From contig CALUTD010000007.1 of NCBI GenBank assembly GCA_944323625.1, positions 1-64,000 of the forward strand: a stretch of 64,000 bases of DNA, given 5' to 3'. The stretch comes from Candidatus Gastranaerophilales bacterium. Lineage in GTDB: Bacteria > Cyanobacteriota > Vampirovibrionia > Gastranaerophilales > Gastranaerophilaceae. The position numbers were made by a program, and so were the translations under genes. The notes under the pieces were generated by a model. It saw nothing but the letters and a program-made list of their open reading frames with translations. It was not told the origin of the DNA and made no database searches. Shown here piece by piece: positions 5,148 to 49,383 of the stretch. Every line of letters starts with the position of its first letter. Position 1 is the first letter of the stretch.

Positions 5148-5156
5148 GGGGGGGGG
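5148..5156 (+). repeat. G9 homopolymer tract
   Basis: Nine consecutive G in otherwise AT-rich DNA, flanked by TTAA and TAAAAAAAAGG. Unlike the five G10 boxes it is not preceded by YAC. It lies about 110 bp upstream of the small ORF at 5267. Confidence 0.85.
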
Positions 5157-23792: not shown

Positions 23793-24586
23793 ATGTTAAT
23801 CAATAAAAACATTACTTCAATTACCCCCCCCCCGTAGCTTTTAGCAGGTCATTTACTCTCTCGGAAGTTTTAATTACCCTTGTTATTATAGGTATAATTG
23901 CAGCTATAACAATTTCTAATCTCTTAATATCTTTTCAGAAAAAAGAAACTGTATCTAAACTCCAAGCTGCTTATTCAATTGTATCTCAAGGGGCAAATAA
24001 AGCATTATTAGATTGGGGTAATATTGCCGATTGGGATTTATCACTTTCTACAAAAGATTACGGACAAAAATATATTAAACCTTATTTTTCTTTTGTAAAA
24101 GAATGTACCGAAATGTCTGACGGCTGCTGGGTAACAGACGGATTTAACGGATATTACGATTTAGCCGGCAATAAGATAACAACTTCAGTACCGTATTCTC
24201 TTGTTCTGAATAACGGTATGATTTTAGGTATAAACAAAATTAACAGAACAAATATTTTATCATACATAGTAGATATAAACGGCAGTAAAAAACCAAACAA
24301 ACTGGGACGTGATATTTTTTCATTTTATATATACAGTTCAAGTTTTTCCTTTTGTAATGGTGCAAAAATATATCCCGGTAAAGACGGGCTTTATCCGGGT
24401 GGAGCCCATGATTGCGGGCCTGCGCATGCATTTTTCTCCAGAAAAGAACTTTTAAGTACCAGTTTATTGAGAGGATGTAATAAAAAAGCAAGTGATGGCG
24501 GCGGTAATCGCCCCGGAGTCGGAACAGCTTGCGCGGCCGTAATTGCTATTGACGGCTGGCAAATAAAAGATGATTATCCTTGGTAA
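23793..24586 (+). CDS. Phase-variable pilin-like gene, OFF by frameshift at C10
   Basis: ATG 23793 opens a leader, MLINKNITSI-T, that enters a run of ten C (23824-23833). With ten C the frame reaches TAG at 23835 after Pro-Pro-Pro, giving a 14-residue peptide. With one more C (or two fewer) it continues as TPPPVAFSRS, then FTLSEVLITLVIIGIIAAIT, and stays open to TAA at 24586: about 264 residues. The downstream part has the VDINGSKKPNKLGRDIF loop, paired cysteines and the tail IAIDGWQIKDDYPW. There are no other stops, so the defect is only tract length. The 474-bp ORF from 24113 is the tail of this gene, not a separate one. Confidence 0.85.
23824..23833. repeat. G10 box (minus strand GCTAC-G10-TAATT) in pilin leader
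   Basis: Ten C on the plus strand. On the complementary strand it reads GCTACGGGGGGGGGGTAATT, the same box as at 34191 and 35733. It lies at codons 11-14 of the 23793 gene. Confidence 0.95.
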
Positions 24587-33990: not shown

Positions 33991-34166
33991 GCGCACATCC
34001 TCCCCTAATCTCTCTATTTTACATGTTTCAATTATATATTAAAATAATTAACTTGTAAAAAAAATATTATAACTGAAAAATGATAAATACTTTAAATAAT
34101 AATTTAAATTATTATTTGCAAAAATTAATAAATATATGATAATATAAATTAAAAAGGAGGAAAACT

Positions 34167-34208
34167 ATGAATATATTAAATAAACGCCACGGGGGGGGGG
34201 TAATTTAA
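34167..34208 (+). CDS. Short leader ORF containing a G10 box
   Basis: ATG 34167 follows an excellent RBS (AAAAAGGAGG). It reads MNILNKRH, then GGG, V, I and stops at TAA 34206-34208 (13 residues). With eleven G it would extend to 34 residues, ending in a TGA inside the terminator hairpin at 34255-34278. With nine G it stops at once. The extended frame (GGGGNLKSKNSF) resembles the leader of the pilin-like protein at 41033 (GGGEKNNLNFQNSF), so it may be a decayed pilin leader or a phase-variable attenuator. Confidence 0.5.
   Translation: MNILNKRHGGGVI
34191..34200. repeat. G10 box (GCCAC-G10-TAATT)
   Basis: Ten G on the plus strand at codons 9-12 of the short leader ORF. Flanks match the boxes at 23824 and 35733. 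Confidence 0.95.
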
Positions 34209-34254
34209 AATCTAAAAACAGTTTTTTATTATATTTTCTTAAAATAAATTTCAG

Positions 34255-34287
34255 TCAATATTTCATTTGAAATATTGATTTTATTTG
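34255..34287 (+). terminator. Intrinsic terminator between leader ORF and pilin-like gene
   Basis: TCAATATTTCA (34255-34265), loop TT, TGAAATATTGA (34268-34278), then TTTTATTTG. It would end leader transcripts before the gene at 34344. Confidence 0.7.
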
Positions 34288-34343
34288 TTTAAATATTTAT
34301 AAATATTGGTATATAATTATTGTTACATAGGGGAATTTAAAAT

Positions 34344-35009
34344 ATGAAAAAGATGAAATCATTTACTTTGGCAGAGGTACTAATAACACTTGTAATTATC
34401 GGTATAATTGCAGCAATAACTGTTCCTGTAGTTATGTCAAATGTTCAAAAGCAGGATACAATTTCTAAGTTAAAAAAGGTATATGCTATGGTATCTCAAG
34501 CTGCAAATTTAACAAAAATAGATAATGGTTTGTTAATTGATCATTATATAGATAATGACAGTACTCCTACTGAAGAAATGCTAAATTATTTTAAAAATAC
34601 ATATTTCATACCTTATCTTCAGATACAAAAGGAGTGTACAGGATATGCAGAATGCGGGTACGAAAAGGCTTTGCCTTGGACAACAATATCAGGAGAAGAA
34701 TATCTCTTTCCTGATATGAATAATGGTGCATACTATTTATTAGACGGAACTTTTGTTGCTTTAGATGTGGATTTTGATTGGGCAGATTTATATATAGATA
34801 TAAACGGACCTAAAAAACCTAATAAATATGGACGTGATGTTTTTGTTATTGAAATTAAAGGTCAAAATAATGTCAATAAGGTTACCGGCGGATGGTGCAG
34901 CAGTGCTGCTTCCGTTAATAATGATTGTAGTTCGACAGGAAGAGGCTTGTGCTGTCTTCAGAAGTTAATAAATGACAACTGGGAGTTCAAAGATGACTAT
35001 CTTTGGTAA
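34344..35009 (+). CDS. Type IV pilin-like protein (prepilin)
   Basis: 221 residues. The leader MKKMKS precedes FTLAEVLITLVIIGIIAAITVP, with Glu at +5 and Ser at -1 in place of Gly. The globular domain has two cysteine pairs (KECTGYAECG; WCSS...DCSS...CCLQ), the loop IDINGPKKPNKYGRDVFV and the tail NDNWEFKDDYLW. Start ATG 34344 follows GGGGAATTT. It has no G tract in its own coding sequence, but a G10 leader ORF and a terminator lie upstream. It is convergent with the pilin-like gene at 35049-35773. Confidence 0.88.
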   Translation: MKKMKSFTLAEVLITLVIIGIIAAITVPVVMSNVQKQDTISKLKKVYAMVSQAANLTKIDNGLLIDHYIDNDSTPTEEMLNYFKNTYFIPYLQIQKECTGYAECGYEKALPWTTISGEEYLFPDMNNGAYYLLDGTFVALDVDFDWADLYIDINGPKKPNKYGRDVFVIEIKGQNNVNKVTGGWCSSAASVNNDCSSTGRGLCCLQKLINDNWEFKDDYLW

Positions 35010-35048: not shown

Positions 35049-35773
35049 TCAATTTACGGATTGAGTTATATTCCATGGATAATCACTCTTAATCTCCCAG
35101 CCATCCTTCATCAAAAGGGTTGAACATGCAGTATATCCATTGCCATAATATCCAGGATTTTTACATAATTCAATATTTTCTTCTCTTGTTTTATCCATAT
35201 AAGGCGGTGTTAATGTTCCGTCATCATGAAGTGTAAACCAAAACATCTGTCTTGTAGGTTTAGTATAGCCTGAATAAGTTGCTTGAGCATGTAAATTATT
35301 CCATCCGTAAGTTCCGCTCGGCGACATTAAACATGCATAAGGTTGTTTCCCTGTTTCACATCTATCTGCTGCACATGTTGCATATCCGCATATAGCCTGA
35401 CTTCCATCTTGAAAAACAAACAGTACACCATTTGTAAAATAACCCATAACGTGTATATTTCTTTCAATTTTTATACTATTAATATGTTTTGAAATGTATT
35501 TATCAAATAATTCTTCCATATTTTCATATTCCCATGAAGAGAATTGGCCGTTTTCTGTTTCTGCGAGCCTTATTGCCTGATTGAAAGTTGAATATAATTT
35601 TTTAACCTGATTTGCAACCTTTACTTTTTGGTATTGATTAATCATTATTGGAACGGTTATAGCCGCTATAATTCCGATTATCACAAGAGAAATTAAAACT
35701 TCTGATAAAGTAAAAGATTTATATTCCGCCACGGGGGGGGGGTATTTAAAGAGCTATTTTTCAATTTTTTCAT
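35049..35773 (-). CDS. Phase-variable pilin-like gene, OFF by frameshift at C10
   Basis: On the minus strand ATG 35773 (RBS AGGAGAAA) opens MKKLKNSSLNT and then a run of ten C. Ten C gives TPPPWRNINLLLYQKF and a stop. Eleven C restores TPPPVAEYKS, then FTLSEVLISLVIIGIIAAITVP, open to 35049. The downstream ORF can be read only from the GTG at 35732, which lacks an RBS and would still leave a short usable leader. The globular part has four or more cysteines and the tail KDGWEIKSDYPW. It lacks the DINGxKxPN loop of its relatives, having SPSGTYGWNNLH instead. Confidence 0.83.
35733..35742. repeat. G10 box (GCCAC-G10-TATTTAAA) in pilin leader
   Basis: Ten G on the plus strand, read as C10 by the minus-strand pilin-like gene. 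The flanks match the 34191 box closely although the gene runs in the opposite direction. Confidence 0.95.
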
Positions 35774-41032: not shown

Positions 41033-41779
41033 ATGTATAAATCAATTAACTGCTACGGGGGGGGGGAAAAAAATAACTTAAATTTTCAAAACTCTTTCTC
41101 TAAAAATAAATTCACATTTACTCTTGCCGAAGTTTTGATTACTCTTGTTGTTATAGGAATAATTGCTGCAATTACTGTTCCCATTGCAATGGCAAACCAT
41201 AAAAAAATCGAAACCGCTAACAGAATTAAAAAATTTTATTCAAACTTTACAAATGCTATTAAACAGGCAGAAATAGAGCATGGAATTCCTTCTTACTCGT
41301 GGCCACAGGTCGGTAATACAAATGAAGAATTTTTTAATACTTATCTAGCAAAATATATTTCATACTCAAAAATTGTTACTAACCCGTCTGATATGTATTC
41401 AGATCTTATGGGAGGCGAATTGTTAATATATTTAAATGACGGTATGATTGTTGGTATTGCAAGCGGTTATCCCACTAAATCCATTACATTAGATGTAAAT
41501 GGAGAAAAAGGTCCAAACAGTCCCAGTAGAGATATATTTGATTTTGAACTAATGACTGGTTATGATGGTGCCCCTCCTTCCAATAATGATAGATATTTAT
41601 TTACTCCAACATGTGCAGATTATAACTCAGAAGGAGAAACCGATGATTATTCAAGGCAAGGAATAATAAATGCAATGAAAGATTTAAAAGGCACAAATTC
41701 ATATGCAATTTGGTGTGGATCAACATTATTTATGATGGACGGCATGGAATTTAAAGATGATTACCCTTATCGTTTATAA
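41033..41779 (+). CDS. Phase-variable pilin-like gene, ON (G10 in frame)
   Basis: 248 residues from ATG 41033 (RBS AAAAAAGGAG; the upstream TTG is not needed). The leader MYKSINCY-GGG-EKNNLNFQNSF is unusually long, 28 residues. Its three Gly codons come from the ten-G run at 41057-41066. FTLAEVLITLVVIGIIAAITVP follows, with Glu at +5 and Thr at -1. The globular part carries LDVNGEKGPNSPSRDIFDFEL and the tail MDGMEFKDDYPYRL. Loss or gain of one G would truncate it, so it is the ON counterpart of 23793 and 35773. Confidence 0.9.
   Translation: MYKSINCYGGGEKNNLNFQNSFSKNKFTFTLAEVLITLVVIGIIAAITVPIAMANHKKIETANRIKKFYSNFTNAIKQAEIEHGIPSYSWPQVGNTNEEFFNTYLAKYISYSKIVTNPSDMYSDLMGGELLIYLNDGMIVGIASGYPTKSITLDVNGEKGPNSPSRDIFDFELMTGYDGAPPSNNDRYLFTPTCADYNSEGETDDYSRQGIINAMKDLKGTNSYAIWCGSTLFMMDGMEFKDDYPYRL
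41057..41066. repeat. G10 box (GCTAC-G10-AAAAAAA) in pilin leader
   Basis: Ten G, codons 9-12 of the 41033 gene, followed by A7, itself a slippage-prone run. The box has the same 5' flank as 23824 (minus strand). Confidence 0.95.
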
Positions 41780-49311: not shown

Positions 49312-49383
49312 TTAAACATGAAAAAACTTTCCATTATTTATTTTAAATTCCTCCCCCCCCCCGTAGAAAATCCAATGATACAT
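49312..49383 (-). CDS. Orphan short ORF with a G10 box (23 aa)
   Basis: On the minus strand, MYHWIFY-GGG-EEFKINNGKFFHV then TAA. The start MY...Y-GGG-E matches the leader of the ON pilin-like gene at 41033 (MYKSINCY-GGG-E). No pilin domain follows in any frame, and no RBS precedes it. It is either a decayed pilin leader or a small peptide in the 5' region of the minus-strand gene at 48868. Confidence 0.4.
   Translation of the reverse strand: MYHWIFYGGGEEFKINNGKFFHV
49353..49362. repeat. G10 box (minus strand TCTAC-G10-AGGAATTTAAA)
   Basis: Ten C on the plus strand. Read on the minus strand it follows TCTAC, like the other boxes. It lies 78 bp upstream of the start of the 48868-49275 gene. 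Confidence 0.92.

Follow-up and report, generated by a model that had tools for sequence, protein, structure and literature searches.

A putative poly-G-switched transcription attenuator ahead of pilin-like genes in a Gastranaerophilales bacterium

Introduction

Phase-variable attenuation has been demonstrated in Streptococcus gallolyticus at two loci, pil1 and pil3, the expression of which is mostly OFF (PMC3894217). In the pil1 system, changes in a GCAGA repeat lengthen a leader peptide, and ribosomes destabilise the terminator that is situated before pil1 (PMC3894217). Leaders that end 39-49 nt upstream of this terminator are OFF, and a mostly-low profile is seen in isolates whose stop is 28 nt or more upstream; leaders that end 4 nt upstream, within or beyond the terminator are ON (PMC3894217). 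Mutants of the start codon and of the terminator moreover matched the prediction (PMC3894217).

Here we describe a locus of related layout in a 64 kb stretch of DNA (64,000 nucleotides, referred to as the window; GC content 31%) from a Gastranaerophilales bacterium, the assembly of which comprises 1.99 Mb in 37 contigs. In line with this lineage, the glyA product encoded in the window is 90% identical to MAG Tb.RUG.218. As for pil1, a repeat is found within an RBS-bearing leader ORF, followed by a putative intrinsic terminator and then a pilus gene. Likewise, it depends on the frame whether leader translation ends well ahead of the putative terminator or at, in or after it, in 20 of 20 aligned copies of the same genome and in 8 of 8 of a second species. 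The stop distances are close to those of pil1, with borderline cases here at 12 and 14 nt (ON) and 25 nt (OFF). The repeat is however a homopolymeric G tract rather than GCAGA pentamers, one in three frames is predicted to be ON as compared to two in three for pil1 (the out-of-frame repeat numbers), and the downstream genes are single and type IV pilin-like, whereas the S. gallolyticus switch precedes sortase pilus operons. Further differences are the approximately 22 copies per genome, the AT-rich hairpins, the conserved promoter-like element after the terminator and the very distant phylum. By analogy, the target would work like pil1; neither common descent nor sequence homology is claimed.

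A homopolymer whose frame state alters transcription termination, as is proposed here, is also known from the poly-C tract of Neisseria meningitidis siaD, where termination however is Rho-dependent and occurs inside the target gene itself, as opposed to a separate leader. A literature search returned no paper on phase variation in pilins of Gastranaerophilales or Melainabacteria. The original prediction for this DNA had termed a tract-length switch acting on attenuation unusual, which is right, although a precedent exists in pil1 and pil3 (PMC3894217). The principle has been described in a single Streptococcus species, though not in the form or number seen here.

Results

The target cassette occupies the region from minus-strand glyA to a pilin-like gene of 221 codons' product length (221 aa), and comprises the following features (coordinates of the window).

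34116..34143, + strand: P1, candidate leader promoter, TTGCAA-16-GATAAT (9/12 match)
34153..34160, + strand: RBS of the leader, AAAGGAGG (read from sequence)
34167..34208, + strand: leader ORF as sequenced (G10), MNILNKRHGGGVI, 13 codons and TAA, predicted OFF state
34191..34200, + strand: G10 tract, putative slippage site, inside a conserved CGCYAC-G9/10 box (sequence)
34201..34208, + strand: TAATTTAA, source of the stops in the G9 and G10 frames (excess conservation 0.57)
34201..34252, + strand: spacer, open in the G8/G11 frame only (family length 47-54 nt, sequence poorly conserved)
34253..34280, + strand: putative terminator hairpin, 12 pairs, loop at 34265-34268 (fold, compensatory changes in 14 paralogs)
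34268..34270, + strand: TGA ending the G8/G11 (predicted ON) leader, where the loop meets the 3' arm
34288..34317, + strand: P2, promoter-like element after the terminator, TTTAAA-18-TATAAT (10/12 match)
34329..34334, + strand: RBS of the pilin-like gene, AGGGGA (sequence)
34344..35009, + strand: pilin-like protein, 221 aa, with its own start MKKMKSFTLAEVLITL (PF07963 N_methyl)

Direct reading of the sequence confirmed the anatomy originally predicted, namely a leader ORF (ATG at 34167-34169), the G10 tract, the hairpin and the pilin-like gene (34344-35009), the product of which matches PF07963 N_methyl above the cut-off (E 9.8e-6). The predicted codon counts are also correct, with 11 for G9, 13 for G10 and 34 for G11 (equivalently G8), the G11 stop being the TGA at 34268-34270 within the hairpin and the G9 and G10 stops falling 45-50 nt upstream of it. 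A U-rich tail follows the hairpin up to 34290. In a 21-locus alignment, the -10 region of P1, ATATATGATAATATAAA, is conserved family-wide (excess identity 0.58), and the stretch from the RBS to the ATG of the leader reaches 0.49. Leader-tract lengths across the family are 8-11, and in most family copies TAATTTAA is replaced by TAAATTAA, a double stop.

All three leader frames have ended by 34270, and the pilin has a separate RBS and starts at 34344; no tract length puts the pilin in frame in the manner of a translational contingency locus. Classical loci of that kind are present as 48 fused sister genes, with the same G-tract box and in the same genome and pilin family; unlike these, the target has its tract outside the pilin frame, the leader ending before the RBS and start of the pilin. 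An action of the tract on promoter spacing was rejected because the tract sits downstream of P1, with P2 following only about 90 nt or more beyond it, and translational coupling between leader and pilin was rejected because 73 nt separate the ON stop from the pilin ATG.

The window contains six G or C runs of 9-10 nt and none of 6-8 nt. Genome-wide, there are 121 G runs of at least 8 nt, and YACG8 is found at 85 sites as compared to 0 for the reversed control; the arrangement exceeds chance. Classification of 92 distinct tracts identified 44 as G-strand, in-frame fusions near the start of a pilin gene and 4 as C tracts fused to pilin genes, while 21 display the target layout, one more does so with a lost start codon, and the remainder reside elsewhere. 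The fused genes encode leaders such as MNKSLNRHGGGGRNRLLFKNSF..FTLSEVLITL. The genome hosts ordinary pilin contingency genes plus a numerous second class, that of the target. Among the 48 fused genes, 4 are at an ON length, as are 2 of about 20 leaders, where random frames would give one third, all states being the consensus of one assembly per species, in which minority alleles may be hidden. For the fused pilins, the strong excess of OFF states could stem from few genes being ON at a time, from selection or from a consensus effect. Close paralogs are unequal in tract length (G8, G9 and G9 at C22; G10 and G9 at C30), which agrees with slippage.

As for the other tracts of the window, that at 41057-41066 is in-frame with a pilin-like gene and of ON length (G10), those at 35733-35742 and 23824-23833 are C tracts in the direction of the gene (..TPPPV..FTLSEVLI), in fused pilin-like genes and of OFF length, and those at 5148-5156 and 49353-49362 are intergenic with no pilin nearby. 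Elsewhere in the genome (C4:4.8-8.8k), three G10-G11 tracts are located within 4 kb, in sequence that by eye resembles sugar-nucleotide or surface-polysaccharide genes, an indication that phase variation may not be limited to pilins.

When the target region was used as a nucleotide query, more than 20 loci that carry leader, hairpin, P2 and pilin were recovered, with about 22 copies in the genome. A covariance model of the hairpin and P2, from which the tract was left out, identified 23 sites, and every match uncut by contig ends has an upstream G tract, except C5:38.5k. For 20 aligned copies, with distances measured from the core stem, the spacer between tract and core hairpin is 47-54 nt, and the G9 and G10 stops lie 38-51 and 25-46 nt upstream of the core hairpin, respectively. 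In 17 of the 20, the G8/G11 frame has no stop before the hairpin is entered, and in the remaining three it ends 4, 12 and 14 nt short; the stops between nt 10 and the hairpin number 49, 30 and 5 in the three frames. One of these copies (C17:914) has ATC instead of the leader ATG, its frames being potential only. A further copy with a different hairpin, at C18, has the same layout with the ON stop inside the hairpin. A natural mutant, C1:69483, is a cassette without hairpin, and C5:38.5k has a pilin, a strong hairpin and a P2-like element but no leader ORF, with a C10/G10 tract upstream on the other strand.

Eight loci are present in a second species of the genus (G008). They were located through their tracts only, and their hairpin is unrelated to that of the first genome (TGCACCAAAC..GTTTGAGTGCATTTTTA; one copy folds with -12.4 kcal/mol). 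In all eight, the OFF stops lie 35-54 nt ahead of the hairpin and the ON stop 15-71 nt past the hairpin start, the ON class being G8/G11 in seven copies and G10 in one. Across both species, every scorable copy has two tract-length classes that stop 25-54 nt ahead of the hairpin and a third (G8/G11; G10 in one copy) that reaches the hairpin edge, its interior or beyond. The second species also harbours pilins arranged as divergent pairs that share one intergenic region, their tracts being separated by about 207-256 bp. In these pairs, a C-tract fused pilin lies opposite a G-tract leader or fused pilin. In a further genome (G019), the tract pilins looked at are of the fused type wherever the pilin is assignable.

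The covariance model gave no match in 40 other genomes of the genus, and the cassettes therefore look like recent, species-level expansions. Similarly, the target appears to be a recent arrival at glyA, because neither a pilin nor a tract is found at this site in 15 named relatives. The pattern RBS-ATG-CNNYACG8-TARA had no match among 84,980 named species, a set from which the genome of the window or near genomes may be omitted, and viral contigs had no match to the leader-tract pattern.

The target hairpin folds with -11.1 kcal/mol (z = -4.7 against shuffles), and other gene ends in the window have comparable hairpins (-11.6 to -18.2 kcal/mol). Among 14 distinct paralogs, 92% of cells are paired and two-sided changes are present at 5 of 13 pairs, which is reached by 0 of 500 shuffles, while sliding the partner by 1-3 columns lowers the pairing to 40-49%. 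Compensatory arms are clear at C1:81.1k (CAACATTT/AAATGTTG) and C5:27.6k (GAAAATATTTC/GAAATATTTTC). The hairpin is predicted to terminate transcription. The AT-rich target hairpin was not scored by a simple terminator scan, which demands at least 3 G-C pairs.

The motif AAATATT(G) is present three times in 34269-34310, in the 3' arm of the hairpin and then twice before the -10 of P2; the later copies could compete for the 5' arm of the hairpin or act as a protein site. A DNA operator reading of the repeated AAATATTG motif is not favoured, since at C1:81.1k and C5:27.6k changes in one hairpin arm are matched in the opposite arm, with no such covariation towards the repeats downstream.

The spacers of the 20 copies are highly diverged, with a tree length of 4.9 substitutions per site. 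In a neutral simulation from an open ancestor, a mean of about 7 of the 20 copies keep the ON frame to the hairpin region. Four roots were used with 3000 runs each, none of which kept the frame open in all 20 copies; when the branches were halved, the fraction of such runs was at most 0.005. The simulation includes substitutions only, and indels would be expected to worsen the null. Conservation does not extend to the peptide: pN/pS is 1.26 for the leader spacer, whereas the corresponding stretch of the fused sister genes gives 0.76, and substitutions by codon position amount to 671, 878 and 790, without third-position concentration. Excess identity is 0.87 for the tract box, 0.79 for the -10 of P2 and about 0.7 for the hairpin arms, with the spacer (0.30), the leader codons (0.22) and the loop (0.11) drifting, values that come from a short alignment of paralogs which are not fully independent (duplication, possible gene conversion). 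Such a distribution is what would be expected if the position of the ribosome over the terminator matters. The proposed switch resembles trp-type attenuation in that ribosome position on the leader would decide terminator formation; unlike an amino-acid-responsive attenuator, however, the leader has neither a conserved peptide nor conserved regulatory codons, and the variable would be the frame, not amino acid supply.

The P2 block, AATATTGATAAATATTGGTATATAATTATT, is conserved in all copies (excess identity 0.65-0.79), so that both candidate promoters are conserved, P1 upstream of the leader and P2 downstream of the terminator. With at most 3 mismatches allowed, the P2 motif is found at 18 sites, all in these cassettes, and at 0 sites for the reversed control. 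The hairpin at C5:38.5k is followed by a related element, and the second species has a similar one. By eye, P2 looks like the own promoter of the pilin, older than the leader. Since a P2-like promoter follows the terminator in all copies, the attenuator reading is only partly supported, and the switch may therefore modulate a basal level rather than act as a strict on/off device. Judging from the sequence, we lean towards a scheme in which P2 provides basal expression and P1 adds a phase-variable boost. A promoter after the terminator that fully accounts for expression had been named in the original prediction as a possible refutation; a P2-like element is indeed present and, judged from sequence alone, might account for all expression without the leader.

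Discussion

We consider it probable that the target is a phase-variable, translation-controlled transcription attenuator. RNA polymerase would start at P1 and make a short leader mRNA, the reading frame of which would be set by slippage in the G tract. With G9 or G10, i.e. in two of three frames, the ribosome would stop early, allowing the hairpin to form and transcription to end (OFF), and the G10 allele of the window would represent this state. With G8 or G11, the ribosome would instead enter the hairpin and block its folding, the polymerase continuing into the pilin gene. The decisive variable would be the distance that the ribosome travels, not the peptide, with P2 probably supplying a basal level and the switch setting the dose. 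Tract instability within the population, termination at the hairpin, antitermination by the ribosome and the relative strength of P1 and P2 are the parts of this scheme that we infer. The originally predicted attenuator gains from the recurrence of its stop and hairpin geometry (about 22 loci, and 8 in the second species), the openness of the ON frame despite a drifting peptide, and the covarying hairpins. It is weakened by P2 being situated after the terminator, by the AT-rich hairpin that the terminator scan did not score, by the broken copies (C17:914, C1:69483) and by the incomplete independence of the paralogs.

The position of P2 also permits a different view, in which P2 alone drives the pilin, leader and hairpin are the remnant of a lost upstream fused pilin, and the hairpin insulates P2 from P1. 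Congruent with this, P2 is among the best conserved non-coding blocks, and C5:38.5k combines a P2-related element with pilin and hairpin without a leader. The leader spacer is furthermore similar to the N-terminal coding region of the fused sister pilins, which also speaks for the decayed pilin leader that was the alternative in the original prediction, as far as origin is concerned. Neither reading, however, accounts well for maintenance: conservation is seen for P1, the RBS, the tract, the stops of the two OFF frames and the hairpin arms, but not for the spacer, leader codons and loop, the ON frame extends to the hairpin region in 20 of 20 copies against the neutral mean of about 7, and the second species has equal geometry despite its different hairpin. 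We hence regard P2 acting alone, with the remainder as relic, as rather unlikely, and a decayed leader is likewise an unlikely explanation for the family.

It is also conceivable that no switching takes place at the DNA level, and that the G run gives a fixed mixture of frames through slippage during transcription or frameshifting by the ribosome, leaving each copy constitutively and partly ON. That nearly all tracts of the assembly are at OFF lengths would be tolerable for such a leaky mechanism, but rare ON states fit antigenic-type variation as well, and close paralogs differ in tract length (C22, C30), as predicted by DNA slippage; this explanation seems improbable to us. Still less credible is the idea that the leader product is a small, phase-variable peptide with its own function, in which case the hairpin would simply be the terminator of the leader and the pilin a separate gene. 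The leader has a good RBS and promoter, and the ON peptides, of 23-54 aa, are frequently hydrophobic, but the absence of peptide conservation (pN/pS 1.26, no third-position excess) argues against such a role, and the ON stop is often inside or past the terminator, which is odd for a gene preceding its own terminator.

Returning to the attenuator, a broader proposal can be made tentatively, and we deem it possible rather than probable: a surface-pilin repertoire of about 70 genes would share one G-tract box but employ two mechanisms, in-gene frame switching (on/off) and attenuation with a basal promoter (dose). Within the genus, the attenuators would have originated, or acquired new terminators, on at least two occasions. 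If the attenuator reading is true, attenuation switched by poly-G, which is among the commonest contingency elements, would represent a recurring solution, found more than 20-fold in one genome and also in a second species. Switching outside the frame of the target could then moreover escape surveys of phase variation that are restricted to interrupted genes. For these uncultured, non-photosynthetic gut relatives of cyanobacteria, the findings suggest large, switchable pilin repertoires.
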